From: Candidatus Latescibacterota bacterium
GTDB lineage: Bacteria > Latescibacterota > UBA2968 > GCA-2709665
Length of the DNA stretch: 14,712 nucleotides
Assembly: GCA_030746455.1 (NCBI GenBank)
Contig: JASLMQ010000501.1
Location: 1-14,712 of the forward strand
Direction of reading: 5' to 3'
Each line of letters opens with the position of its first letter. The stretch's first letter is position 1. Below, in pieces: positions 1,643 through 14,712 of the stretch. A model generated the notes under the pieces. It was not told where the DNA came from. It ran no database searches and saw nothing but the letters and a program-made list of their open reading frames with translations. A program made the position numbers and the translations under genes.

Positions 1643-2206
1643 ATGACCGAACCCCAAGCACTGCTCAACTTCGTCCACAACGCTCACATCTTCGCTTCCG
1701 CGGTGAGTGAGATCCTTGAGAACAAGTACCTCCGGCAGGCCACCGATCAGGAGATCAACTTCCCCCAGTTCAACCTACTTCGGCTGATCGAACACAACGG
1801 GGACCACCAGATCCGGGAGATCGCGAGCTTCCTCGGGGTCAGCCAGGCGGCAGCCAGCAAGAACGTCGACAAGCTGGTCCGTCTGGGCCTGGTGAAACGC
1901 CAGGTTCAGGAGGGCGACCGACGCGCCGTGTCGCTGAACCTGACGCTCCGAGGCAGAAACGTCGTGCAGAAATACGAGGCCCTCAAGGAGGAGAAGCTGG
2001 CACACATGCTCGAGGAGCTCACACAGGACGAGCTGGAGATATTGTCGCGCGGCCTCGAGAGGGCATCCTATCTCATACTGGAAAAGGAGGAGGATTTCGG
2101 AGAGATCTGCATGAAGTGCAGTGCGTACCACGTTGAGGGCTGTCCGATGCGAAGCCTGGCCGAGGGCTGCATCTACGTCCGAAGCCGGGAGCAGGCCGTA
2201 CAATAG
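1643..2206 (+). CDS. MarR-family transcriptional regulator with C-terminal four-cysteine cluster
   Basis: A 187-aa dimeric-type winged-helix regulator. Residues about 55-87 form the helix-turn-helix (IREIASFLGVSQAAASKNVD, then KLVRLGLVKR). The wing carries the family's D-R-R signature (GDRRAVSLNLT, 91-101), and long helices flank on both sides. Unusually, the C-terminus carries C156-x2-C159-x7-C167-x8-C176, a spacing that could hold an iron-sulfur cluster or a zinc ion. The ATG at 1643 has GGAGG six bases upstream (1632-1636). It is the first gene of the co-directional run ending in the acetyl-CoA synthase genes, with 70 bp to folD, so autoregulation and control of the pathway by redox, oxygen or metal state is a reasonable inference. 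The MarR fold is clear. Ligand, target and sign of regulation are not known from sequence. Confidence 0.85.
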   Translation: MTEPQALLNFVHNAHIFASAVSEILENKYLRQATDQEINFPQFNLLRLIEHNGDHQIREIASFLGVSQAAASKNVDKLVRLGLVKRQVQEGDRRAVSLNLTLRGRNVVQKYEALKEEKLAHMLEELTQDELEILSRGLERASYLILEKEEDFGEICMKCSAYHVEGCPMRSLAEGCIYVRSREQAVQ

Positions 2207-2276: not shown

Positions 2277-3161
2277 GTGAGCGCGAAGATTATCGATGGC
2301 AACAAGGTGGCCGAGGAAATGCAGGCCGAGATGGTCGACGAAGTGGCGAAACTGGAGACCGATGGAATCACGCCGGGCCTGTCGGTGGTCCTGGTCGGCG
2401 AAGACCCGGCCTCGAAGGTCTACGTGAGGAACAAGACCCGGACCTGCAAGAAGCTTGGGATCAAATCCGACCAGCACAGCCTGGATGCCGACACCTCCGA
2501 GGAAGACCTTCTCGCCCTGGTGGAGAAGCTGAACAACGACGACACGGTGCACGGCATCCTCGTACAGATGCCGCTCCCCAAGCACATCAACGAGAACGAG
2601 GTGATCAAGGCCATATCCCCCGACAAGGATGTGGACGGATTCCATCCGGTCAACGTCGGTAAGATGGTGATCGGGGAGCCCGGATTCCTGCCATGCACCC
2701 CGCATGGGGTCCAGCACCTCCTGATCCGTAGCGGCGTCGAGATCGCCGGCAAGCACGTCGTTGTGGTGGGCCGGAGCAACATCGTGGGCAAGCCCGTGGC
2801 CAACATCCTACTCCAGAAGCAGGAGGGGGCCAACGCCACGGTCACGATCTGCCATACGGGCACCGATGACATCGCCGCCCACACGCGCCAGGCCGACATC
2901 ATCATCGCCGCCGCGGGACGCCCGAACACCGTAACAGCCGACATGGTCAAAGACGGGGTCGCCGTGATCGACGTCGGCGTGAACCGCGTCGACGATCCCT
3001 CCGCCAAGCGAGGCTTCAAGCTGGTGGGCGACGTGGACTTCGACGCCGTGAAGGAGAAGGCGTCTGCCATCTCACCGGTGCCCGGCGGCGTGGGACCGAT
3101 GACCATCACAATGCTGATGCACAACACGATCGACTCCGCCAAGATGAGCGCCGGGAAGTAG
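2277..3161 (+). CDS. folD: Bifunctional methylenetetrahydrofolate dehydrogenase / methenyltetrahydrofolate cyclohydrolase
   Basis: FolD oxidises 5,10-methylene-THF to 5,10-methenyl-THF with NAD(P)+ and hydrolyses that to 10-formyl-THF. In the Wood-Ljungdahl methyl branch it runs in the reductive direction. The 294-aa length is normal. Visible family blocks in order are VGEDPASKVYVRNKTRTCKK near residues 41-60, with the catalytic Tyr and Lys of the YVRNK motif; VHGILVQMPLPKHI; DKDVDGFHPVNVG; PCTPHGV; the nucleotide-binding VVVVGRSNIVGKPVANILL; and the C-terminal SPVPGGVGPMTITML. The start is GTG at 2277, supported by GGGAGGA at 2264-2270. Location in an acs cluster points to a catabolic or autotrophic role in addition to one-carbon biosynthesis. 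NAD versus NADP preference cannot be read reliably. Confidence 0.97.
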   Translation: MSAKIIDGNKVAEEMQAEMVDEVAKLETDGITPGLSVVLVGEDPASKVYVRNKTRTCKKLGIKSDQHSLDADTSEEDLLALVEKLNNDDTVHGILVQMPLPKHINENEVIKAISPDKDVDGFHPVNVGKMVIGEPGFLPCTPHGVQHLLIRSGVEIAGKHVVVVGRSNIVGKPVANILLQKQEGANATVTICHTGTDDIAAHTRQADIIIAAAGRPNTVTADMVKDGVAVIDVGVNRVDDPSAKRGFKLVGDVDFDAVKEKASAISPVPGGVGPMTITMLMHNTIDSAKMSAGK

Positions 3162-3212: not shown

Positions 3213-3857
3213 ATGCTGGAGAAGGGGTCGCTCAAGCCGCCCGAGGGCGACAGCTGGCAGCAGGCATGGGAGCTGGCGGTCGATCTCACCGTGGCCAAGC
3301 TCGCTGAGTCCGATCTCGAGGACCGCTGCAAGAAGAGCGGCGCACAGTGGGATCCGGATTCGGGCATGGTGGAAATCGCTTTCCTGGGTGATCGCTACCG
3401 GGTACCTTGTCCCGAGTTCACGGTAGCCAGATTGGCCGACGGTGGCGATGCCCCCATCACGGAGCGGATCCTGCTTCTACACTACCTGGTGCGGGCCACC
3501 GGCGCCGCGCCCACCGATGAGTGGATCGGGTTCGTGGAGGTGCCGGGAGCCGAACTCTACCTGGCCAACTTCCGCGCCCGTAGCGTGGACCGTCTGGTCC
3601 GGGCCTACTCCGGGCGCGAAGAGGAACTGGTCGGGGCTGCCGCCGCAGTCGGCGGCCAGGAGGCCGACCACGGCGATGTGGCCGTGTGCCTCCAGGCCCT
3701 CCCGAACGTCCCGGTGATGGTGACCCTGTGGCGGGGCGACGATGAGTTCGCGCCGTCCGGCAACCTTCTCTTCGACTCGACGGTGGTGCAACACCTTTCG
3801 ATCGAGGACATGGTGGTGTTGGCAGGCACCATTGCCAGCCGGCTCTGCCAACGCTGA
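3213..3857 (+). CDS. DUF3786 domain protein
   Basis: A 214-aa soluble protein matching, from memory, the DUF3786 family: a first segment with IAFLGDRYRVPCPEF (about 52-66), then ERILLLHYLVRATGA, WIGFVEVPGAELYLANF, a central GG-x-x-x-x-HGDVAV stretch, and the C-terminal VPVMVTLWRGDDEFAPSGNLLFDSTV with an LSIEDMVVLAG tail. The function of the family is unknown. It is often found in anaerobes near acetyl-CoA pathway or corrinoid genes, which fits its place between folD and cooC. No signal peptide, membrane segment or metal motif is evident, and it has only a few scattered cysteines. The ATG at 3213 has GGGAG at 3202-3206. The gap to folD is 51 bp. A role as an accessory or maturation factor is only contextual inference. 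Confidence 0.8.
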   Translation: MLEKGSLKPPEGDSWQQAWELAVDLTVAKLAESDLEDRCKKSGAQWDPDSGMVEIAFLGDRYRVPCPEFTVARLADGGDAPITERILLLHYLVRATGAAPTDEWIGFVEVPGAELYLANFRARSVDRLVRAYSGREEELVGAAAAVGGQEADHGDVAVCLQALPNVPVMVTLWRGDDEFAPSGNLLFDSTVVQHLSIEDMVVLAGTIASRLCQR

Positions 3858-3906: not shown

Positions 3907-4698
3907 TTGAAGATCGCGGTGAGCGGCAAAGGTGGCGTCGGCAAGACGACGCTCAGCGCCGGGCTCGCGGCATCCTTCGCGAGGGGTGGCGCAAACGTGA
4001 TCGCCGTGGACGGCGACCCGGACAGCAATTTGGCGGCGACCCTCGGCTTCCCCAGCCCGGATGACATCACCCCCATCGGCGAGATGGAGGAGCTCATCGC
4101 CGAACGGACGGGTGCGGAGCCGGGCAGGACGGGGTCCATTTTTACGCTCAACCCGAAGGTCGACGACATTCCCGACGACTTCTGTCCCGAACATGCGGGC
4201 ATCCGTCTGCTCTCGATGGGCGGAGGCACGCGCGAGGGCGGAAGCGGATGCCTGTGCCCGGAGAACGCCTTCCTGAGGTCGTTGATGTCCCATGTCATCT
4301 TCGGCGTGGACGACGTCGTCATCATGGATATGGTGGCCGGGATCGAGCATCTGACCCGCGGGACGGCACGCGGTGTGGACGTCCTCCTCGCCGTCGTGGA
4401 GCCGGGCAGAAGAAGCCTGGAAACCGCTGGAAGGGTCCGTCGGCTGTCGGGAGATCTGGGCATCGGCGAGTTGTGGGTTGTGGCCAACAAGGTCCGTGGC
4501 GATGCCGATCTCGAGTTCATCACCGGCCAGCTGGAGGACCTGGAAGTCGTCGCCTCCCTGCCGTACAGCGCCGAGGTCGTCGAAAGCGGAATGAGTCAGG
4601 AAGGCATGGCCGAGGTCCTCGACGGCCCGGTCGGGCAGGAAATCGGAAGGATCCGGGCTCGCCTCAGCGAGACCTTCGGCGGCTCAGCCGAGACCTGA
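3907..4698 (+). CDS. cooC: CooC/AcsF-type nickel-insertion ATPase
   Basis: A 263-aa MinD/SIMIBI-class ATPase that drives nickel delivery into the C-cluster of CO dehydrogenase (CooC) or the A-cluster of acetyl-CoA synthase (AcsF). Seen: the deviant Walker A loop SGKGGVGKTT at residues 6-15 with the signature lysine K8, VDGDPDSNLAATLG (34-47) as the switch region, C115-x-C117 in SGCLCPEN (the dimer-interface cysteine pair that binds metal in CooC), and Walker-B-like DDVVIMDMVAGIEHLTRG from about residue 135. The start is TTG at 3907, chosen because AAGGAGG ends six bases upstream and the protein then begins exactly at the family's MKIAVSGKGG. Only one such ATPase lies in the window, so it may serve both CODH and ACS. 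CooC and AcsF are too alike to separate here. Confidence 0.93.
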   Translation: MKIAVSGKGGVGKTTLSAGLAASFARGGANVIAVDGDPDSNLAATLGFPSPDDITPIGEMEELIAERTGAEPGRTGSIFTLNPKVDDIPDDFCPEHAGIRLLSMGGGTREGGSGCLCPENAFLRSLMSHVIFGVDDVVIMDMVAGIEHLTRGTARGVDVLLAVVEPGRRSLETAGRVRRLSGDLGIGELWVVANKVRGDADLEFITGQLEDLEVVASLPYSAEVVESGMSQEGMAEVLDGPVGQEIGRIRARLSETFGGSAET

Positions 4699-4737: not shown

Positions 4738-4977
4738 ATGGATGTCCAGGAACGACTCGGGATTCTGGTAGACCACTGGATCGAGCACAACGCCTCTCAC
4801 GGCGAGGAATTCGGCAAGTGGGCTCAACGTGCCGAGGAAGCCGGACTCGAGGGGGTCGCCAGGGAGATCGCCGCGGCGACTGAACGCCTCGAGGAGTCGA
4901 CGAGCCGGCTCCGCGAGGCCCTTGCCCTCCTGGGCGGGTCGACCCACAAGGCGGGAGGCCATCATGTGCCAGAGTAA
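4738..4977 (+). CDS. Small helical His-bearing protein of the cooC-cooT block, candidate nickel-handling protein
   Basis: A 79-aa protein. Residues 10-65 look continuously helical and charged, amphipathic enough for a coiled coil. The N-terminal helix carries HWIEHNASH, placing H13, H17 and H21 at i, i+4, i+8 on one face. After a GG break the tail HKAGGHH adds H70, H75 and H76. It has no cysteine, no membrane segment and no signal peptide. It sits 39 bp after cooC and its last 14 nt overlap the start of cooT, suggesting translational coupling and a shared task. I recall similar short HWIEHN proteins beside nickel and CODH genes but cannot confirm a named family. In Rhodospirillum rubrum the nickel genes are cooC-cooT-cooJ, and this protein could play a CooJ-like part. 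That is inference from context and His content, not homology. Confidence 0.8.
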   Translation: MDVQERLGILVDHWIEHNASHGEEFGKWAQRAEEAGLEGVAREIAAATERLEESTSRLREALALLGGSTHKAGGHHVPE

Positions 4978-5167
4978 TGTCTACGCCGTCGAACGCGATG
5001 AGGAGACGCTTGTTCTCGAGGATGTAGCCAGCATGCGGATCGATGGTGACCAGATCACCATGCGGACCCTTTTCGGGGAGCCTGTCTCTCTGGAAGGGCG
5101 GATCAAAGAGATCAATTTGATGAAACATAGGATCGTGCTCGAAAGGCACGATGCGGGAGAGTCCTAA
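4964..5167 (+). CDS. cooT: CooT-family nickel-binding protein
   Basis: A 67-aa protein starting MCQSNVYAVERDEETLVLED. CooT proteins are small beta-rich homodimers that bind one Ni(II) through the Cys2 side chain and N-terminal backbone atoms, and they assist CO dehydrogenase nickel maturation. Seen: Cys2 directly after Met, then the family pattern LEDVASMRIDGDQITMRTLFGE, and GRIKEINLMKHRIVLER at the end. Length agrees with the family (about 60-70 aa). The ATG at 4964 overlaps the preceding gene by 14 nt and has GGGAGG at 4953-4958. Neighbouring cooC and the CODH gene downstream support the call. Confidence 0.92.
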   Translation: MCQSNVYAVERDEETLVLEDVASMRIDGDQITMRTLFGEPVSLEGRIKEINLMKHRIVLERHDAGES

Positions 5168-5324: not shown

Positions 5325-5504
5325 ATGGCGGAGCAGAAGGACGTACTCGGCGAAACCTACGAGCCCGGCAAGCCCGATGGCGCCTACAACTGGCGAAAGA
5401 AGCTGGCGAGCCGTGAGCAAATGCTCAAGTATCTCGAGACGGGCGAGCGGTATTGGTACAGCGAGGAGTGGTACGGCAGCGAGAGACGGCGCACGCCTGC
5501 CTGA
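5325..5504 (+). CDS. Unrecognised 59-aa aromatic-rich small protein
   Basis: An ATG at 5325 lies five nucleotides after a near-perfect Shine-Dalgarno AAGGAGGTGA (5311-5320), one of the strongest in the window. The same frame is open further upstream, but that part crosses the hairpin region and encodes low-complexity sequence, so 5325 is preferred. The protein is charged and rich in Tyr and Trp (nine of 59), clustered in ERYWYSEEWYG (41-51), with a probable helix KKLASREQMLKYLE before it. It has no Cys, signal peptide or membrane segment. It ends 59 bp before acsD in the same direction. I do not recognise the family. Position suggests a small partner or assembly protein for the CODH/ACS/CFeSP system. 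Confidence 0.72.
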   Translation: MAEQKDVLGETYEPGKPDGAYNWRKKLASREQMLKYLETGERYWYSEEWYGSERRRTPA

Positions 5505-6533: not shown

Positions 6534-8504
6534 GTGGCGAATCCAGAGGATAAAAGCGTAGATGGCGCAACCCATGAGCTGCTCGAAAAGGCCGAGGCGG
6601 ATGGCGTTCTCACGGCCTTTGAGCGGGCGGCCACCACCCGCCCCTGTCCCATCGGCGGCGAGGGAAGCTGCTGCAAGCTCTGCTCGATGGGACCGTGCCG
6701 GCTTCCGTCCCCAAAGAGGAAGGCCGAGACCGCAGAGGAGAAGGACGCCAGAAGGGGCGTGTGCGGAGCAACCATAGAGACGATCGCGGCCCGGAATTTC
6801 GTCCGGATGATTGCCGCCGGGACGTCGGCCCACTCGGACCACGGCAGGTCGGTGGCCGAGACCTTCCTGAGGGCGGCAGAAGGGGAAGGCTCGGACTTTC
6901 AGATCGTTGACGAACAGAAACTGCTCCAGGTGGCCCTGGACTTCGGCGTCGAGCTCGAAGGCAAGACCACTCAGGAGATCGCCATCGAGGTTGGCGAGAC
7001 CGCCGTCGGCGAGTTCGGAAAACGGGAGGGGACGCTCCGGTTCCTGAGGCGAGCGCCGCTGAAGCGCCAGCAGATCTGGGAGGAGCAGCAGGTGATGCCC
7101 AGGAGCATCGACCGCGAGGTGGTCGAGTGTCTGCACCGCACGGCGATGGGCGTGGATCTGGACTACAAGCACCTCTTTCAGCAGGCCTCGCGCACGGCCC
7201 TCGCAGATGGGTGGGGCGGGTCCATGCTGGCGACAGAGCTCCAGGACATCATGCTCGGTACCCCCGTACCTGTGACCGGCAATGTGAACCTCGGCATCCT
7301 GAGGGAGGACGCCGTCAACATCATCGTGCACGGACACGAGCCCCTCCTGCCGGAGATGCTGGTGGTGGCCACGCGGGACAAGGAGCTTCTCGAGCTGGCC
7401 AAGTCCAAGGGCTCCAACGGGATCCAGCTCGGCGGCATCTGCTGCTCGGCCAACGAGATCCTGATGCGACACGGCGTACCGCTCGCAGGCAACATGCTTC
7501 AGCAGGAAGTGGCTGTCGTCTCGGGCGCAGTGGAGGCGATGGTCGTGGATGTGCAGTGCATAATGCAATCCCTCCCCAAGGTGGCCGAGTGCTACCACAC
7601 GGAGATCATCACCACGTCCGAGAAGGCCAAGGTTCCGGGGGCGATCCACATCGAGGCCGACGAGGCGAACCCCCTGGCGGCGGCGAAGGAGATCGTCCGC
7701 CGTGCGATCGAGAACTACCCGAACCGGATGGCGAGCAAGGTGAACATCCCGGCCCACACGGTCGATCTCGTCGCGGGATTCTCTCACGAGACCATCAACT
7801 ATATGCTTGGGGGGCTCTTCCGCGCATCCTACAGACCCCTGAACGACAACATCATCAACGGCCGGATCCGCGGCGTAGCCGGCGTCGTCGGATGCACCAA
7901 CCCCCGGGTGAAGCACGAAGACGTCCACACCCGACTTGTGAAGAGGCTCATCGAGAACGACGTGCTCGTCGTTCAGACCGGATGCGCGGCCATGGCCTGC
8001 GCCAAGCTCGGTCTGATGGCTCCCGAGGCCGGTGCCACTCAGGCGGGTTCGGGCCTGGCCGAGGTCTGCGAGACCGTCGGCATCCCGCCCGTGCTGCATA
8101 TGGGATCGTGCGTGGACAACTCGAGGATCCTGATGGCGGCCACGGCCATGGTGAAGGAGGGCGGCCTGGGCGACGACATCTCCGATCTTCCGGCCGCCGG
8201 CGCGGCACCCGAGTGGATGAGCGAGAAGGCCATCGCCATCGGCCACTACTTCGTCACATCCGGCGTCTACACGGTCTTTGGCGTGACCTGGCCCACCCTG
8301 GGCAGCGAGGATGTCACCCAGTGGCTCTTCGACGGCATCGGCGACGTCTACGGCGGGATGTGGGCCTTCGAGCCGGATCCCGACAAGATGGCCGATCTGA
8401 TGATCGCCCATATCGACAAGAAGCGTAAGGCCCTGGGCCTCGACAAGTCCCAGGAGCGGGTACTCTACGATATGGACATGAGGCGCGAACTGGATGCGGT
8501 CTGA
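6534..8504 (+). CDS. acsA: Nickel-dependent carbon monoxide dehydrogenase catalytic subunit
   Basis: The CODH (AcsA/CooS type) interconverts CO2 and CO at the Ni-Fe-S C-cluster and channels CO to AcsB. It is 656 aa, normal length. Likely ligands by comparison with characterised enzymes: D-cluster C38 and C46; B-cluster C47, C50, C55 and C77; C-cluster H266-G-H268, C303 or C304 (GGICCSANE), C342, C454 (GVVGCTNPR), C484 (TGCAAMACA) and C526 (GSCVDNSR); and the catalytic lysine K565 in SEKAIAIG. The C55-C77 loop is about eight residues longer than I expect. The GTG start at 6534 has AAGGAGG at 6521-6527. Direct coupling to acsB (35 bp downstream) favours an acetyl-CoA-forming CODH/ACS rather than a stand-alone CooS. 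Confidence 0.97.
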   Translation: MANPEDKSVDGATHELLEKAEADGVLTAFERAATTRPCPIGGEGSCCKLCSMGPCRLPSPKRKAETAEEKDARRGVCGATIETIAARNFVRMIAAGTSAHSDHGRSVAETFLRAAEGEGSDFQIVDEQKLLQVALDFGVELEGKTTQEIAIEVGETAVGEFGKREGTLRFLRRAPLKRQQIWEEQQVMPRSIDREVVECLHRTAMGVDLDYKHLFQQASRTALADGWGGSMLATELQDIMLGTPVPVTGNVNLGILREDAVNIIVHGHEPLLPEMLVVATRDKELLELAKSKGSNGIQLGGICCSANEILMRHGVPLAGNMLQQEVAVVSGAVEAMVVDVQCIMQSLPKVAECYHTEIITTSEKAKVPGAIHIEADEANPLAAAKEIVRRAIENYPNRMASKVNIPAHTVDLVAGFSHETINYMLGGLFRASYRPLNDNIINGRIRGVAGVVGCTNPRVKHEDVHTRLVKRLIENDVLVVQTGCAAMACAKLGLMAPEAGATQAGSGLAEVCETVGIPPVLHMGSCVDNSRILMAATAMVKEGGLGDDISDLPAAGAAPEWMSEKAIAIGHYFVTSGVYTVFGVTWPTLGSEDVTQWLFDGIGDVYGGMWAFEPDPDKMADLMIAHIDKKRKALGLDKSQERVLYDMDMRRELDAV

Positions 8505-8539: not shown

Positions 8540-10744
8540 GTGTCAAAGATCATCTGTTCAGCAGCAATTCGCGGCGCTCACACGCTGGTCGGCAGGGCGG
8601 AGCAGGAGTGGAAGGAGGCCGTCGACACGTGGGGCCTCACCCAGGATGTGGGGTTCCCGAACACGGCTTACTTCCTGCCCATCATCTACGGCATGCTTGG
8701 GACGAAGGTGGAGAAGCTTGGGGACATGGAGGGGGTGCTGGCACAATGTAAGACGCTGTTGCCGCCGCCGGTCAGCGAAGATGTGAACCTCCCCTACCTG
8801 GGCCCCGCCCTCGACGCAGGCATGGCCACCCTCTTCGCCGAGGAGATCATCGAGTCCATCCGGTATCTCAAGGAACCCGATGCCTACACCCAGCAGGAGG
8901 AGCCCACCGACGGGAACATCTGGCTGGGAGCGGCAGACGACATCATCCTGCGGAAGCGCGGTATCGAGTTCGTCGACGGAACCGCGCCAGGCTTCGCCGC
9001 CATCGCGGGGGCGGCCCCCTCGCCTGAAGTGGCCGTCAAGATCGCTCAGGAGCTTCAGGAGAAGAACCTGTACGTGTTCATGTGCGCCGAGCACAACGGC
9101 GTGAGATTCGCGGAGCAGCTTCAGGAGGCCGGCGTGCAGGTCGGATGGCCCACCCGCCTGGTCTCCTTCGGTGAGGAGATCACCGCGGCCGTCTTCGCGA
9201 TGGGTTTCGCGACCCGCGCCGCCATGTCCTTCGGTGGCATCGAGCCCGGAGACTACCGCAAGATCCTGATCTACAACAAGGACCGGTGCTTCGCCTTCGT
9301 GCTGGCGATGGGCCACGTCACCGAGGAGTGGTACGCCACCGCGGCCGGCGCCATCAACTGGGGCTTCCCGGTCATCGCCGACACGAACATCCCCGAGGTG
9401 CTTCCTACAGGGATCTGCACCTACGAGCACGTGGTGTCCAACGTGCCGCACGACGAGATGGTCTCCCGCGCCGTCGAGGTCCGCGGCCTGAAGGTCCAGG
9501 TGTCCGAGGTACCCATCCCGGTGTCCTACGGCGCGGCCTTCGAGGGCGAGCGCGTCCGTCGCGACGACGTCTTCGCCGAGGCGCGGGGCGGCCGCAACGT
9601 CGTGTGCGAGTGGACCACCACCAAGTCCATGGACGAGGTCGAGGACGGCAAGGTGGAGGTCATCGGCCCCGATCTCGACGAGATCGGCGAGGGCGCCAAG
9701 TTCGACATGGCCATCGTGGCCGAGGTAGCGGGACGGGAAATGCAGGACGACTTCGAGCCCATCCTAGAGCGCCAGATCCACCATTTGGTCAACTTCGCCC
9801 AGGGCGTGATGCACATCGGGCAGCGCGACATCGCGTGGTACCGGATCGGCAAATCGGCCGTGGAGAAGGGGTTCCGGCTCTCGGATCTCGGCAAGATCGT
9901 CCACGCTCGCTACCATCAGGACTTCGGACGTATCTTCGACAAGGTGCAGGTCAAGGTCTACACCGAGAAGGACAAGGCGAGCGAGATCCTGGAGCAGGCT
10001 CGGAAGGTCTACACGGTCCGGGATGCCAGGGTTGAAGGCATGACCGATGAAACCACCGACATGTACTACTCCTGTACCCTCTGTCAGTCCTTCGCACCGA
10101 GCCATGTCTGCGTGATCAGCCCGGAGCGGACGGGGCTCTGCGGGGCCTACAACTGGATGGACTGCAAGGCCTCCTTCGAGGTGAATCCCACGGGCCCCAA
10201 CCAACCGGTGGAAAAAGGCCAGGCTATCGACGAGAAGCTGGGTCAGTTCGAAGGCGTGAACCAATTCGTCCGGCAGGCCTCCAGGGGCAAGATCGATCAC
10301 TACAACTTCTACAGCATCGTCCACGACCCGATGACCACCTGCGGCTGCTGCGAGTGCATCGCGGCGATCGCGCCGATGTGCAACGGCGTGATGACGGTGA
10401 ACCGTGAATATGGCGGAGACACCATCTGCGGTATGCCGTTCACGACCCTGGCCGGAACCATCGGCGGAGGGATCAGCACGCCCGGGTTCGTCGGACACAG
10501 CAAGTACAACATCTGTCAGCGCAAGTTCCTCGCCGGCGACGGTGGCTTCAAGCGGCTCGTGTGGCTGCCCAAGATGCTAAAGGAAGAGATCCGCGACAGG
10601 TTGGTCGCCCGGTCCGAAGAGATCGGCATCCCGAACTTCCACGAGATGATCGCCGATGAGACGATCGGCGTCACCGAAGAAGAGATTCTGCCGTTCCTCG
10701 AGGAGAAGGGACATCCCGCGTTGACGATGGACCCGATCCTCTAA
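8540..10744 (+). CDS. acsB: Acetyl-CoA synthase catalytic subunit
   Basis: AcsB condenses CO, the methyl group of methyl-CFeSP and CoA into acetyl-CoA at the nickel A-cluster. It is 734 aa, the full bacterial form including the N-terminal domain that docks on CODH and carries the CO tunnel; archaeal CdhC lacks that part. A-cluster ligands are all present with the spacing of the Moorella enzyme: C512-x2-C515-x8-C524-x9-C534 for the cubane (with C515 or its equivalent bridging to nickel) and C601-G602-C603 for the distal nickel in TTCGCCECIAAIAPMC. Other blocks are GIEPGDYRKILIYNKDRCFA and the C-terminal GGISTPGFVGHSKYNI. The start is GTG at 8540, with GAGGAGGT seven bases upstream (8525-8532). 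An ATG at 8533 is in another frame. Confidence 0.98.
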   Translation: MSKIICSAAIRGAHTLVGRAEQEWKEAVDTWGLTQDVGFPNTAYFLPIIYGMLGTKVEKLGDMEGVLAQCKTLLPPPVSEDVNLPYLGPALDAGMATLFAEEIIESIRYLKEPDAYTQQEEPTDGNIWLGAADDIILRKRGIEFVDGTAPGFAAIAGAAPSPEVAVKIAQELQEKNLYVFMCAEHNGVRFAEQLQEAGVQVGWPTRLVSFGEEITAAVFAMGFATRAAMSFGGIEPGDYRKILIYNKDRCFAFVLAMGHVTEEWYATAAGAINWGFPVIADTNIPEVLPTGICTYEHVVSNVPHDEMVSRAVEVRGLKVQVSEVPIPVSYGAAFEGERVRRDDVFAEARGGRNVVCEWTTTKSMDEVEDGKVEVIGPDLDEIGEGAKFDMAIVAEVAGREMQDDFEPILERQIHHLVNFAQGVMHIGQRDIAWYRIGKSAVEKGFRLSDLGKIVHARYHQDFGRIFDKVQVKVYTEKDKASEILEQARKVYTVRDARVEGMTDETTDMYYSCTLCQSFAPSHVCVISPERTGLCGAYNWMDCKASFEVNPTGPNQPVEKGQAIDEKLGQFEGVNQFVRQASRGKIDHYNFYSIVHDPMTTCGCCECIAAIAPMCNGVMTVNREYGGDTICGMPFTTLAGTIGGGISTPGFVGHSKYNICQRKFLAGDGGFKRLVWLPKMLKEEIRDRLVARSEEIGIPNFHEMIADETIGVTEEEILPFLEEKGHPALTMDPIL

Positions 10745-10808: not shown

Positions 10809-10828
10809 TATCCTGTTTGGAGACTGAA

Positions 10829-12172
10829 ATGGCGCTTTCTGGTATCGAAATCTTCAAGCTCCTGCCGAAGACCAACTGCAAGGACTGCGACTTCCCGACC
10901 TGCCTGGCCTTCGCTATGAGCCTCTCGCAGGGGAACACGGAGCTCGCGAAGTGTCCCCACGTATCCGATGAGGCGAAGGCCGCCCTCTCCGAATCCTCCG
11001 AGCCCCCCATCCGCACCGTGACAATCGGGTCCGATGGCGCTGCCACGAAGGTGGGTGGTGAAACCGTCCTTTTCCGACACGAGAAGACCTTCGTGAACCC
11101 CACGGCACTGGCGATCCTGGTCACCGATGCCATGGACGACGCCGAGATCGAAACACGGGTCAAGAAGCTGAATGAGCTACAGTATGACCGGGTCGGCGTC
11201 ATCCTGAAGCCCGATCTGGTTGCCGTGAAGGACACGGAGGGAAATGCGGACAGATTCGCCGCTGTGGTCGGAAAGGTCGCCGAGAGTGGCGCGGGGATGA
11301 TCCTGATGTCGTCCAGCCCCGACGTGCTGTCCGCCGGTGCGAAGGCCTGCGCTGGGCAGAACCCCCTACTCTACGGAGCGGACAAGGAGAACGTGGAGCA
11401 GGTCGGCGCCCTGGCTAAGGAAAGCGGATGCCCCGTCGGCGTCCGTGGCGAGGGGCTCGAGGAGCTGATGGCCGTCACCGAGAAGCTGGTCGGAATGGAC
11501 GTCAAGGACCTGCTGATCGACTCCTGTCCCGGAAACCTGGGACAGGCCCTGAACGATCAGATCGTGGCCCGGCGGGCCGCCCTTTCGGGCGACTGCAAGG
11601 ATCTGGGCTTTCCTACGATCTCGATTCCCTCCGAGATGACCGACGATCCGATGCAGGAAGTGGTGATCGCCGCGGCGATGATCGCCAAGTACGCGGCAGT
11701 CATCGTCCTGTCGGATTTCGACGGGGCCGGCCTCTTTCCGCTGCTGCTCGAGCGGCTCAACATCTACACCGATCCGCAGCGCCCGATGGCCACCCAGGAG
11801 GGCGTCTACGAGATCAACGGGCCATCCGAGGACTCCCCGGTTCTGATCACGTCCAACTTCTCGTTGAGCTACTTCATCGTCTCGGGCGAGATCGAGACCA
11901 GCCGCACCCCCAGCTACCTCCTCGTGAAGGACACGGAGGGGCTCTCGGTGATGACGGCCTGGGCGGCAGGCAAGTTCGTGGCCGACGAGATCGCCCCGTT
12001 CGTCAAGAAGTCCGGCATCGAGGACAAGGTGAAGCACAGAAAGCTCATCATCCCCGGATTCGCAGCGCAGATCTCAGGCGAGTTGGAGGACGAGCTGCCC
12101 GACTGGGACATCATCATCGGCCCCAGGGAGGCCTCGCACATCCCCGCGTTGCTCAAGGAGTGGAACGCCTGA
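10829..12172 (+). CDS. acsC: Corrinoid iron-sulfur protein large subunit
   Basis: AcsC carries the [4Fe-4S] cluster that reduces the cobamide and, through its C-terminal domain, the B12-binding site. It is 447 aa, matching the family. Seen: the N-terminal cluster motif C17-x2-C20-x4-C25-x16-C42 in TNCKDCDFPTCLAFAM, a central TIM barrel (about 90-310) with LLIDSCPGNLGQALN, and the cobamide-domain block LITSNFSLSYFIVSGEIE followed by TPSYLLVKDTEGLSVMTAWA. The ATG at 10829 (GGAG at 10819-10822) gives the usual MALSGIEIFKLLPKTNC start; a TTG twelve bases upstream is possible in frame but lies on the Shine-Dalgarno. It follows acsB by 84 bp containing a strong hairpin. Confidence 0.96.
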   Translation: MALSGIEIFKLLPKTNCKDCDFPTCLAFAMSLSQGNTELAKCPHVSDEAKAALSESSEPPIRTVTIGSDGAATKVGGETVLFRHEKTFVNPTALAILVTDAMDDAEIETRVKKLNELQYDRVGVILKPDLVAVKDTEGNADRFAAVVGKVAESGAGMILMSSSPDVLSAGAKACAGQNPLLYGADKENVEQVGALAKESGCPVGVRGEGLEELMAVTEKLVGMDVKDLLIDSCPGNLGQALNDQIVARRAALSGDCKDLGFPTISIPSEMTDDPMQEVVIAAAMIAKYAAVIVLSDFDGAGLFPLLLERLNIYTDPQRPMATQEGVYEINGPSEDSPVLITSNFSLSYFIVSGEIETSRTPSYLLVKDTEGLSVMTAWAAGKFVADEIAPFVKKSGIEDKVKHRKLIIPGFAAQISGELEDELPDWDIIIGPREASHIPALLKEWNA

Positions 12173-12309: not shown

Positions 12310-13188
12310 ATGATCATGATCGGTGAGAGCATCAACGTGATGTCCAAGACGCTCAGGCCCGCTATGCGCAACCGGGATCCAAAGCCGATCCAGAAGATGG
12401 CCATCGCCCAGCAAGAGGCGGGCGTCGACTACCACGATCTGAACATCGGGCCCGCCCGGAAGGGCGGCCCAGAGATGATGCAGTGGCTGGTCGAGACCAT
12501 TCAGGAGGTCTCGGATGTACCGCTGTTCCTGGACACCACCAACGTGGAGGCGATGGAGGCCGGACTCAAGGCCCACAAGGGCACCGCGGTGATCAACTCC
12601 ATCTCCTGCAGGCCGGAACGGATGGAGGCGCTCCTGCCGCTGGTCACCCGCTACGACGCCTCCTTCGTGGGTTTGCTCATCGGCGTCGACGGCATCCCGC
12701 GCGACGATGACGAGCGCGCGATGCTGGCCGCAGAGATGCAGGCCGCGATGATGGAGCGGGGCATCTCTGAAGACCGGGTCTTCTTCGACCCCATCGTGCT
12801 CCCCGTATCGTCGCAGCAGGACCAGCTTCAGACATGCACCGCCTTCATGATGATGCTGCAGGATCTGGTGCCCGGAAGCAAGGCCACCTGTGGGCTCTCG
12901 AACGTGTCCAACGGCGCCCCAACGGAGCTGCGGCCGATCCTGGATCAGACCTACCTGGCCATGCTGCTGAAGTACGGGCTGGACTCGGCCATCGTGAACG
13001 CATTTGAGAAGGAGCTGATGGACATCGGCAAGGGCCGTCGCGACGACATCGTTCAAGTCGTACACCGGGTGATGGACGGCGAGGATGTGGATATGCCGTC
13101 CCTCAGCGAGGAGCTGACCAACTACGTAAAGACCACGCGGGTGCTGTTGGCCCAGTCGCTCTATTCGCACTCGTGGCTGCAGGTCTGA
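12310..13188 (+). CDS. acsE: Methyltetrahydrofolate:corrinoid iron-sulfur protein methyltransferase
   Basis: AcsE (MeTr) transfers the methyl group of 5-methyl-THF to Co(I) of CFeSP. It has a pterin-binding TIM barrel as in dihydropteroate synthase. Seen: MIGESINVM at the start, DLNIGPA (43-49), LDTTNVEAMEAGL with D75, INS with N96, FFDPIVLP with D160, and GLSNVSNGAP with N198, equivalent to the pterin-contacting Asp and Asn residues of the Moorella enzyme. Length is 292 aa against about 262 in Moorella; the excess is a charged stretch around residues 238-272 before the last helix (TTRVLLAQSLYSHSWLQV). The ATG at 12310 is supported by AAGGAGA at 12296-12302; an in-frame ATG six bases later is the alternative start. 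Confidence 0.94.
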   Translation: MIMIGESINVMSKTLRPAMRNRDPKPIQKMAIAQQEAGVDYHDLNIGPARKGGPEMMQWLVETIQEVSDVPLFLDTTNVEAMEAGLKAHKGTAVINSISCRPERMEALLPLVTRYDASFVGLLIGVDGIPRDDDERAMLAAEMQAAMMERGISEDRVFFDPIVLPVSSQQDQLQTCTAFMMMLQDLVPGSKATCGLSNVSNGAPTELRPILDQTYLAMLLKYGLDSAIVNAFEKELMDIGKGRRDDIVQVVHRVMDGEDVDMPSLSEELTNYVKTTRVLLAQSLYSHSWLQV

Positions 13189-13222: not shown

Positions 13223-14712
13223 ATGAAAACCTGCACGATCACCTTCCAGCCGGGGGGCCAACAGGCAGCCGTTCCCGAAGGCACGGATCTGTTGACCGCA
13301 GCCATCGCCGCTGATGTGCAGCTATACAACAGCTGCGGCGGCGAGGGCGTTTGCCGCGAATGCAAGGTGATCGTCCGCGAGGGGCGCGTGGCCTCCGAGC
13401 TGATGGAACGGCTCACCGAGGAGGAGCGTGAGGCGGGCTATCGGCTCGCCTGTTGCACCACCGTGCTGGACGACGTCGTCATCGAGGTGCCCCCCGAATC
13501 CAGAATCGAGTGGGAGCAGATCCTCACCGACGGCACAGAGGCCGAAAGGGGCGCCCGCGCCTTCGGCACCGTCCAGGAGGTGAGCAGGGGTCTCGAGCTG
13601 GAGCGGCGCGCCCGCACCGCACCCGCTCCCCTGGTCAGAAAGGCCTTTGTCCGCCTCTCCCCGCCCACCATCGAAGACAACATCAGCGACCTGCAGCGAC
13701 TCTACCGGGAGGTCCGCCGGCAGCATGACACCGGCGAGGTCGGCGCGAGCCTTGGAACCGTTCGCAGGCTCGGACGCGTCCTCAGGGAGGGCAACTGGGA
13801 AGTCACGGTCACCCTGGGCGAGGCCAACAGCCGCACCGAGATCCTGCAGATCGAGCCTGGAGACACGACGAAGCGATGCTTTGGTGTGGTCGTGGACGTG
13901 GGCACGACAACGGTTGTGGTGAGCCTGGTCGACCTCACAACCGGTGAGATTCTTGATACGAAGGCCACCCACAACCGACAGATCCGGTACGGACAGGATG
14001 TCATCACCCGGATCATCTACGCGGAGAAGCCCGACGGCCTCGAGGCCCTGCACAAGGCCGTCGTGGACACGATCAACGGATTGATCTCTTCGTTGGTCAC
14101 CGGGTGCGGCATCAGCCTCACCGACGTGGTGTTCTGCGCGTGTGGCGGCAACACCACGATGACCCATCTCCTGCTCCGCATCGATCCCTACTTCCTTCGC
14201 CGGGCCCCCTACGTCCCGATGGCCAGCACGATCCCCGTCTCCAGGGCCGTCGACGCCGGAATCCGCATCAACCCCAGGGGTTGGATGGCGTGCCTCCCCG
14301 GTGTCGCCAGCTTTGTGGGCGGCGACATCACTGCCGGGGTCCTCGCCGCGGGAATCGACGAGGCCGAGAAGCCCTCCCTGCTGATCGATCTTGGGACGAA
14401 TGGCGAGATCGCACTGGGCAACCGGGAGTGGCTGGTCTGCTCATCCGCTTCGGCCGGCCCCGCCTTCGAGGGCAGTGGCGTCCGATGCGGCGTCAGGTCG
14501 GTGCGAGGCGCCGTTCAAGGCGTCACGATCGATCCCGAATCCCTGAGCACAGAGATCGCGACGATAGAGGACGGCGCCCCCGTGGGGCTGTGCGGCTCGG
14601 GCTACATCGAGCTGCTCTCGGAGCTTCTCTTTTCAGGTCTGATCGACCGTCAGGGCGCACTGCAGCCCGAGAGGGACAGGGACCGGATCCGGGAGGGACC
14701 CGACGGACCCGA
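13223..14712 (+). CDS. acsV: RACo-type corrinoid activation ATPase (partial, 3' end outside window)
   Basis: The reductive activator of CFeSP uses ATP hydrolysis to push an electron uphill onto inactive Co(II) cobamide. 496 residues are visible and the reading frame is open at the right edge. Seen: an N-terminal [2Fe-2S] ferredoxin domain with C38-x5-C44-x2-C47 in SCGGEGVCRECK and a fourth cysteine at C77 or C78; a linker (about 92-215); then an ASKHA ATPase fold of the DUF4445/RACo family with VVVDVGTTTVVVSLVD (222-237), FCACGGNTTMTHLLL, FVGGDITAGV, the phosphate loop LLIDLGTNGEIALGN (386-400), SASAGPAFEGSGV (408-420) and GLCGSGYIELL. The ATG at 13223 gives a normal family N-terminus but has no recognisable Shine-Dalgarno; the gap from acsE is 34 bp, so coupling to acsE translation may matter. 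Confidence 0.94.
   Translation, partial: MKTCTITFQPGGQQAAVPEGTDLLTAAIAADVQLYNSCGGEGVCRECKVIVREGRVASELMERLTEEEREAGYRLACCTTVLDDVVIEVPPESRIEWEQILTDGTEAERGARAFGTVQEVSRGLELERRARTAPAPLVRKAFVRLSPPTIEDNISDLQRLYREVRRQHDTGEVGASLGTVRRLGRVLREGNWEVTVTLGEANSRTEILQIEPGDTTKRCFGVVVDVGTTTVVVSLVDLTTGEILDTKATHNRQIRYGQDVITRIIYAEKPDGLEALHKAVVDTINGLISSLVTGCGISLTDVVFCACGGNTTMTHLLLRIDPYFLRRAPYVPMASTIPVSRAVDAGIRINPRGWMACLPGVASFVGGDITAGVLAAGIDEAEKPSLLIDLGTNGEIALGNREWLVCSSASAGPAFEGSGVRCGVRSVRGAVQGVTIDPESLSTEIATIEDGAPVGLCGSGYIELLSELLFSGLIDRQGALQPERDRDRIREGPDGP

Follow-up and report, generated by a model that had tools for sequence, protein, structure and literature searches.

Among MarR-like regulators, ChlR and ArnR can by analogy be regarded as functional precedents for the use of an iron–sulfur cluster, each with a cysteine layout other than the one described here. 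ChlR is a cyanobacterial MarR-type activator of low-oxygen genes (Synechocystis sll1512; Synechococcus 7002) which is proposed to use an O2-sensitive [4Fe-4S] cluster; the Synechocystis protein measures 135 amino acids and its probable ligands are the N-terminal Cys18 and Cys25, with one cluster per dimer (PMC4500134). ArnR of Corynebacteria has a winged helix reminiscent of MarR/ArsR regulators, requires three C-terminal cysteines at positions 179, 193 and 223 for its [4Fe-4S] cluster and controls the nitrate respiration genes narKGHJI, plus hmp; for its C-terminal part no significant homology is reported (PMC12343034).

The regulator analyzed here is encoded in the window, i.e., the whole stretch of 14,712 nucleotides from a Candidatus Latescibacterota bacterium. 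It shares the MarR family and the connection with low-oxygen genes with ChlR, but is not a member of that group since it has 187 residues, no cysteine before position 156 and a full C-terminal set of four per monomer. A MarR-like winged helix and C-terminal cysteines are likewise found in ArnR, yet the window protein has four cysteines within 21 residues whereas ArnR has three with a quite different spacing. The zinc-sensing AdcR/ZitR proteins also belong to the MarR family and feature a metal site, but their model (NCBIfam NF038251) gives 33.5 bits on the window protein versus a cut-off of 175. All NCBIfam scores of the window protein, the only one for which cut-offs were compared, are far below threshold, and the 28 members of our alignment A2 match models for various MarR proteins and for a small number of other winged-helix regulators. 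Outside the MarR family, the full motif of anamorsin, CX2CX7CX2C, occurs with that exact spacing in one family member (L100), whereas the fourth cysteine of the window protein is spaced otherwise and anamorsin is an unrelated protein. Anamorsin/CIAPIN1 is an Fe-S protein associated with CX2CX7C (PMC8251831), so that a cluster can be accommodated by an opening of like spacing. In the literature covered, which was thin on subscription journals, we found no recognized MarR protein with this cysteine layout or controlling CODH/ACS, nor a description of a tetra-cysteine MarR family or of its Fe-S cluster. The tetra-cysteine MarR protein is probably an undescribed kind of oxygen or iron–sulfur switch.

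The regulator comprises the following elements:

1643..2206, plus strand: MarR-family regulator gene, 187 amino acids
1757..1930, plus strand: winged helix-turn-helix, residues 39-96 (Pfam MarR; AlphaFold2 models)
2108..2170, plus strand: tetra-cysteine tail C156-x2-C159-x7-C167-x8-C176 (from the sequence; motif kept among relatives)

An RBS-like GGAGG (1632-1636) lies ahead of the open reading frame. The initial annotation, made from the letters alone, had read this gene as a MarR regulator with a C-x2-C-x7-C-x8-C tail, a proline after the third cysteine and a cysteine segment continuing past the usual helices, and the closer analysis agrees on each point. The frame at 1643-2206 encodes exactly four cysteines (C156, C159, C167 and C176), the placement of the tail on the DNA holds as codon 156 begins at 2108 and codon 176 finishes at 2170, and P168 directly follows C167. 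Residues 38-96 correspond to the MarR domain (Pfam MarR_2, 55.1 bits with a cut-off of 27; Pfam MarR, 53.9 bits with a cut-off of 24.6). In AlphaFold2 models the MarR elements are predicted to run up to a long helix that ends at residue 148-149, with the cysteine segment beyond it. The model confidence of the tail is moderate (blocks of 62-75) and a deeper alignment brought no clear gain in it. A Foldseek search with the AlphaFold2 model returned 1708 matches at E 10 or better, with a best E of 4.3e-7; the best 50 are MarR-type by title and measure 135-174 residues.

A chance placement of all four cysteines within the last 32 residues has a probability of P = 0.0007, but the conservation of the tail is far stronger evidence than this clustering. 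Three protein searches (68 relatives; the best 120 of 352; the best 120 of 197) provided 283 distinct listed relatives, 276 of which carry C-x2-C-x7-C followed by a fourth cysteine 8, 9 or 10 residues on. Among the seven misses, P0060-P0062 open with C-x3-C, and P0063, P0067, P0068 and P0236, which deviate too, are short or have an unrelated C-terminus. The initial annotation had staked its proposal on the conservation of the four cysteines among close homologs; among the relatives listed it extends to close and remote ones alike. It also appears when the tail is not used for detection: a recognition-helix pattern matched 74 stretches of the genome collection, 38 of which encode relatives, and all 38 have the tail. 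When 40 divergent members, hand-picked, all tail-bearing and with 19-55% identity to the first one, are aligned, eight columns do not vary: L43, A67, R90, R91 and the four cysteines. Profile scores among the fetched loci are bimodal, the motif being present in 110 of 114 rows at or above 97 bits and in none of the 13 rows at or below 81 bits, one of which is a fragment in L124; some genes are counted twice in these rows because the same gene was fetched twice, and the tail itself raises the score as the profile was built from tail-bearing members. The four motif-less rows at or above 97 bits are L077 and L078, which are cut by a contig end, L091 and L100. The latter two are natural tail variants beside NrfD-type operons, with three cysteines (L091) or C-x2-C-x7-C-x2-C (L100).

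By record title, the family spans six phyla: Latescibacterota, Acidobacteriota, Planctomycetota, Gemmatimonadetes, Calditrichota and Neomarinimicrobiota. Its spread is uneven. The share of genomes that have a match at E 1e-20 is 5/7 in the group of L030, 1/64 in the group of L001, 7/347 in an Acidobacteriota-type sample, 7/40 in the group of L036, 18/80 in the group of L008, 14/343 in the group of L007 (including G586, with an ordinary MarR only), 10/149 in the group of L037 and 2/4 in the group of L034, two of these scans having scored nine candidates per genome only. In L142 (also L085 and L102), two family genes of one genome form a divergent pair with about 400 bp between them.

In the window, the regulator gene heads a CODH/ACS operon, as the initial annotation had it when calling it the first gene of a Ni/Fe-S pathway. 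The gene order that follows is FolD-DUF3786-CooC-CooT-58aa-CdhD-CODH-ACS-CdhE-AcsE-AcsV:

2277..3161, plus strand: FolD (methylene-THF dehydrogenase/cyclohydrolase), by Pfam
3213..3857, plus strand: DUF3786 protein, by Pfam
3907..4698, plus strand: CooC-like P-loop ATPase, by Pfam CbiA and named by context
4964..5167, plus strand: CooT, CO dehydrogenase accessory protein, by Pfam
5328..5504, plus strand: 58-aa ORF between CooT and CdhD, in the same place in L001 with 69% identity
5564..6508, plus strand: CODH/ACS delta subunit (CdhD), by profile match
6534..8504, plus strand: Ni-CO dehydrogenase catalytic subunit, by profile match
8540..10744, plus strand: acetyl-CoA synthase alpha/beta, by profile match
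10817..12172, plus strand: corrinoid Fe-S protein gamma subunit (CdhE), by profile match
12310..13188, plus strand: AcsE-like methyltransferase, 245 bits, slightly below the cut-off of 259
13223..14710, plus strand: AcsV-like corrinoid activator, partial at the window end, 475.7 bits with a cut-off of 800

The Latescibacterota-titled locus L001 has the regulator followed by a formate-THF ligase (by reading of the sequence) that opens the operon, and continues with DUF3786-CooC-CooT-58aa-CdhD-CODH in the same order as the window. In both CODH/ACS loci the DUF3786 gene lies between a folate gene and CooC. The 58-aa ORF has no Pfam match and is perhaps a small CODH/ACS accessory protein. On the minus strand, a divergent ORF (2-961) reads as an alanine dehydrogenase/transhydrogenase alpha-type protein.

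The genomic company of the family was compared between the window plus 92 family loci and 31 ordinary MarR-like loci, of which 29 belong to those genomes of the set G001-G016 that carry a family gene, while two (L208, L209) were taken from the group of L007. Greedy ORF picking gave false antisense ORFs in GC-rich contigs and the counts therefore rely on six-frame profiles, most of them named via Pfam matches of representatives. An Fe-S/Ni or related gene set (CODH/ACS, 2-oxoacid:ferredoxin oxidoreductase, [NiFe]-hydrogenase, FeS-NrfD, 2-hydroxyacyl-CoA dehydratase and related sets) is located within -4 to +6 kb in 74 of the 93 family loci versus one of the 31 control loci (L196), in a comparison that is partly circular, as the profiles were built from recurring neighbors of family loci, and in which several control contigs are short downstream (L194 ends after 315 bp, L192 after 1124 bp). 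In 69 of the 93 family loci the set begins on the same strand and at most 1.5 kb downstream. As a count that does not depend on profiles learned on family loci, ORFs with a bare ferredoxin motif were tallied: within 5 kb downstream it occurs in 50/91 family loci and 3/30 controls, and on the antisense strand in 2/91 family loci. The loci behind all these counts are mostly metagenome-assembled, and related loci are not independent. An ordinary ligand-type MarR protein, for its part, differs from the window protein in both tail and neighbors.

The largest class (KOR, 32 loci) is associated with a POR-type 2-oxoacid:ferredoxin oxidoreductase, here named KorDABC, often together with HdrA, HdrBC, MvhD or NfnB-like genes. 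It is followed by FeS-NrfD (NRF; 17 loci, 14 with a class III-type cytochrome c), [NiFe] hydrogenase (HYD; 14), HGD-D dehydratase (5), CODH/ACS (2), polyferredoxin (2) and HdrA (1). The enzymes of these pathways are generally regarded as oxygen-sensitive. The initial annotation had linked the tail to acetyl-CoA synthesis, and the tabulated neighbors of tail-bearing MarR genes uphold the link to Fe-S/Ni operons but not the restriction to that one pathway. In L173 and L176 the regulator is flanked on both sides by a [NiFe]-hydrogenase gene set, and in L178 multihaem cytochromes are encoded upstream of the family gene. Operon type follows the tree, with 14 changes versus a mean of 53 in shuffles; the window groups with L001 (100/98), and the clade of these two is placed next to that of the KOR loci.

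No operon class is found near 19 of the 93 family loci. Twenty loci are labeled 'other' in the tree, of which L034, L035, L126, L127, L163 and L166 form one weakly supported branch and the remainder mostly fall inside or beside the named groups. By Pfam, their neighbors include NuoF/NuoG-type Fe-S proteins (L143), hemerythrin (L131), DnaJ (L035), kinases (L025, L142, L159), the citrate-transporter family (L133), a methyltransferase (L162), TPR (L127), acyl-CoA and short-chain-dehydrogenase types (L160) and FdhD (L038). The hemerythrin-domain protein, which follows the family gene in L131, is an oxygen- or iron-linked neighbor. L126, L127, L163 and L166 have neither an operon class nor an operator-like site above 7.8 bits. 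Given these distant members lacking the operator and the 19 loci lacking an operon class, our claim about function stops short of the whole superfamily.

Upstream of the regulator genes, the family shares a predicted operator, a tandem palindrome of TTAACnnGTTAA occurring twice, 15-17 bp apart, with the consensus TAnTTAACnnGGTTAAnTATTAACnnGGTTAAnnA. When the groups were searched separately for a palindrome of width 16, the motifs aTTaAaCcgGtTtAAt (32 KOR loci), ATTaAaCcgGtTtAAT (13 hydrogenase loci) and.TTAAaCtaGtTTAA. (13 NrfD/cytochrome loci) were retrieved; wider motifs yield other registers of the same TTAA half-sites. Calculated over 81 non-redundant regions of 91, the log likelihood of the motif is 216, whereas eight dinucleotide-shuffled sets give 45-58. 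Matrices that were each retrained on a single group, starting from the all-family motif, recover sites of at least 11 bits in the other groups, ranging from 17/32 (NRF-trained, tested on KOR) to 26/32 (HYD-trained, tested on KOR), with 9/13 twice and 10/13 twice in the other tests and 0, 1 and 2 of 31 in the controls. A matrix trained without the window and L001, though like the operon profiles learned on family loci, finds sites of at least 10 bits in 62/93 family versus 2/31 control loci, and of at least 7 bits in 82/93 versus 9/31. A separate scan leaves 10 of the 93 family loci without a site of 7 bits. Where the best site scores 10 bits or more and a second one of 6 bits or more lies 10-60 bp from it, the spacing is 15-17 bp in 39/46 loci versus 4/27 pairs in 310 shuffled regions.

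Eleven whole genomes were searched, with a threshold of E 0.5, using a model of the tandem (R1) derived from 24 loci; for G002, G012, G013 and G984 the scoring covered no more than 150 first-look candidates. The model gave 12 match rows at nine places in 9/11 genomes, each immediately upstream of a family gene; the matched genomes G001, G005, G008, G013, G543 and G984 are outside its training. At this threshold G004 and G006 have no match and the second family gene of G012 (L125) is unmatched. Since the matches are confined to the upstream regions of family genes, the regulator looks local rather than global at this threshold.

In the window, two predicted operators are located:

1242-1273, no strand assigned: predicted operator A, a tandem of ATTTAACCAAGTGAAC, 13.3 bits, and, at a distance of 16 bp, TATCAACTAGGTTATG, 6.4 bits
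1403-1418, no strand assigned: predicted operator B, ATTAAATCAGGTTAAA, top-scoring in the window with 16.5 bits (held-out matrix)

The copies of operator A start at 1242 and 1258, and their scores come from the matrix whose training left out the window and L001; R1 gives this stretch, which belonged to its training set, 23.1 bits. Operator B has a weak second copy beside it (1419-1434, 4.1 bits with a matrix including the window) and an R1 match at 1402-1432 of 12.9 bits, outside the R1 training set. The region 1225-1450, where the initial annotation had suggested looking for DNA binding, holds the only strong copies of the motif in the window, the best elsewhere reaching 4.2 bits with the held-out matrix. 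In 2000 shuffles of 1200-1460 a score of 16.5 bits was reached twice, and two positions of at least 12.5 bits in none. Operator A is about 370 bp from the start of the divergent ORF 2-961, assuming the Met of MKAGILKE, and shared control is possible. No Rfam match at gathering thresholds, as would indicate a riboswitch in the long leader, was found in the window.

The tail, its conservation, the position in the operon and the shared upstream motif with its specificity are features of the sequences themselves; DNA binding, metal binding, the type of cluster, the signal and the sign of the regulation, in the window also repression as opposed to activation, are what we infer. On balance, we favor a local, autoregulating repressor whose tail would hold a [4Fe-4S] cluster and report O2 or Fe-S status. 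In such a model, C-x2-C-x7-C-x8-C at the C-terminus would provide each monomer with the full ligand set for an iron–sulfur cluster, most likely [4Fe-4S]. This cluster type appears likeliest because there are four conserved thiolates per monomer, a second CxxC knuckle is usually missing and the genes nearby encode Fe-S and Ni enzymes. Each regulator would bind the tandem TTAACnnGTTAA palindromes upstream of its own gene and thereby control itself and the operon behind, in the window CODH/ACS. The oxidized, apo or cluster-damaged form would bind and repress under air or Fe-S stress, while under anoxia, with a supply of iron and sulfur, the intact cluster would move the tail and dimerization helices and release the DNA, so that these expensive anaerobic enzymes are produced solely under conditions in which they can function. 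The proposed sign, with the clusterless form as the repressor, is guessed from the consideration that it is in the absence of oxygen that the enzymes are of use.

The alternative that survives best is compatible with an Fe-S cluster and reverses the sign: like ChlR, which activates low-oxygen genes and is reported to have an O2-sensitive [4Fe-4S] cluster (PMC4500134), the holo form would bind upstream at low oxygen and recruit RNA polymerase. In the window, where the operator is located 224 bp upstream of the regulator start codon and TTGACA follows just downstream of operator B (1454-1459, from the sequence only), both sites lie more than 200 bp from the start, and this arrangement makes a ChlR-like activation possible. 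A scan of 1150-2300 called a sigma-70-like promoter at 1315-1342 only, with 0.6 expected by chance, and none near 1454; a promoter next to operator B was thus not retained. Across the family, in addition, the operator is no more than 20 nt from a possible start codon in 20/32 KOR, 8/14 HYD and 16/17 NRF loci, counts that use the in-frame start nearest to the operator and so favor short distances; at the remaining loci the operator is further off, or no site or start is measurable. By reading of the sequence, several NRF loci have GAGG inside the palindrome directly before the start. An operator almost at the start codon is consistent with a repressor silencing the operon to which it belongs, and we therefore regard activation as a tentative option.

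Four cysteines are compatible with zinc or with a disulfide switch as well. A zinc site, whether structural or sensory, in a protein responding to zinc or to oxidants through thiolate oxidation and zinc release, would draw on the classic zinc set of four cysteines, on C-x2-C as a knuckle and on the existence of a zinc-dependent MarR family (AdcR model, NCBIfam). Most zinc ribbons, however, have a second C-x2-C knuckle, which the tail lacks (L100 excepted within the family), and the recurring neighbors are Fe-S and Ni enzymes rather than genes for zinc uptake or efflux, which makes zinc unlikely. A further reading treats the tail as merely a structural clasp on a sensor of a metabolite such as acyl-CoA or folate. 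Small effector molecules are the typical MarR trigger (PMC4500134), but CODH/ACS, 2-oxoacid oxidoreductase, hydrogenase, NrfD/cytochrome and hydroxyacyl-CoA dehydratase have no obvious common metabolite. What the pathways served have in common is the metal centers of anaerobic metabolism, and we hold a metabolite sensor to be quite improbable. Dithiol/disulfide switches usually need one or two cysteines. A metal-free, reversible switch of this kind sensing oxidants, as known for redox-cysteine MarR proteins such as SarZ (PMC4500134), is the least probable reading, given the four cysteines of almost fixed spacing kept in nearly all listed relatives.

We return to the proposed cluster-holding repressor and its wider meaning. 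That the family as a whole is a phylum-spanning group of MarR proteins with a C-terminal [4Fe-4S] ligand set, each copy a local O2/Fe-S gate on one anaerobic operon controlled by a tandem operator, has in our estimation an even chance of being correct. To our knowledge, the oxygen switching of the Wood-Ljungdahl and other ferredoxin-dependent pathways outside the model acetogens is largely open, and the family offers one testable answer that spans several pathways in six phyla and comes with a predicted operator. In metagenomes, the tandem operator could be an aid in locating anaerobic operons, and the regulator itself could be used as a biosensor for oxygen or iron–sulfur. If the model is true, the operons of acetyl-CoA synthase, 2-oxoacid:ferredoxin oxidoreductase, [NiFe] hydrogenase, NrfD/cytochrome and hydroxyacyl-CoA dehydratase would each be gated by their own copy, and the family would constitute, in mostly uncultured phyla, a modular counterpart of the global FNR-type regulators.
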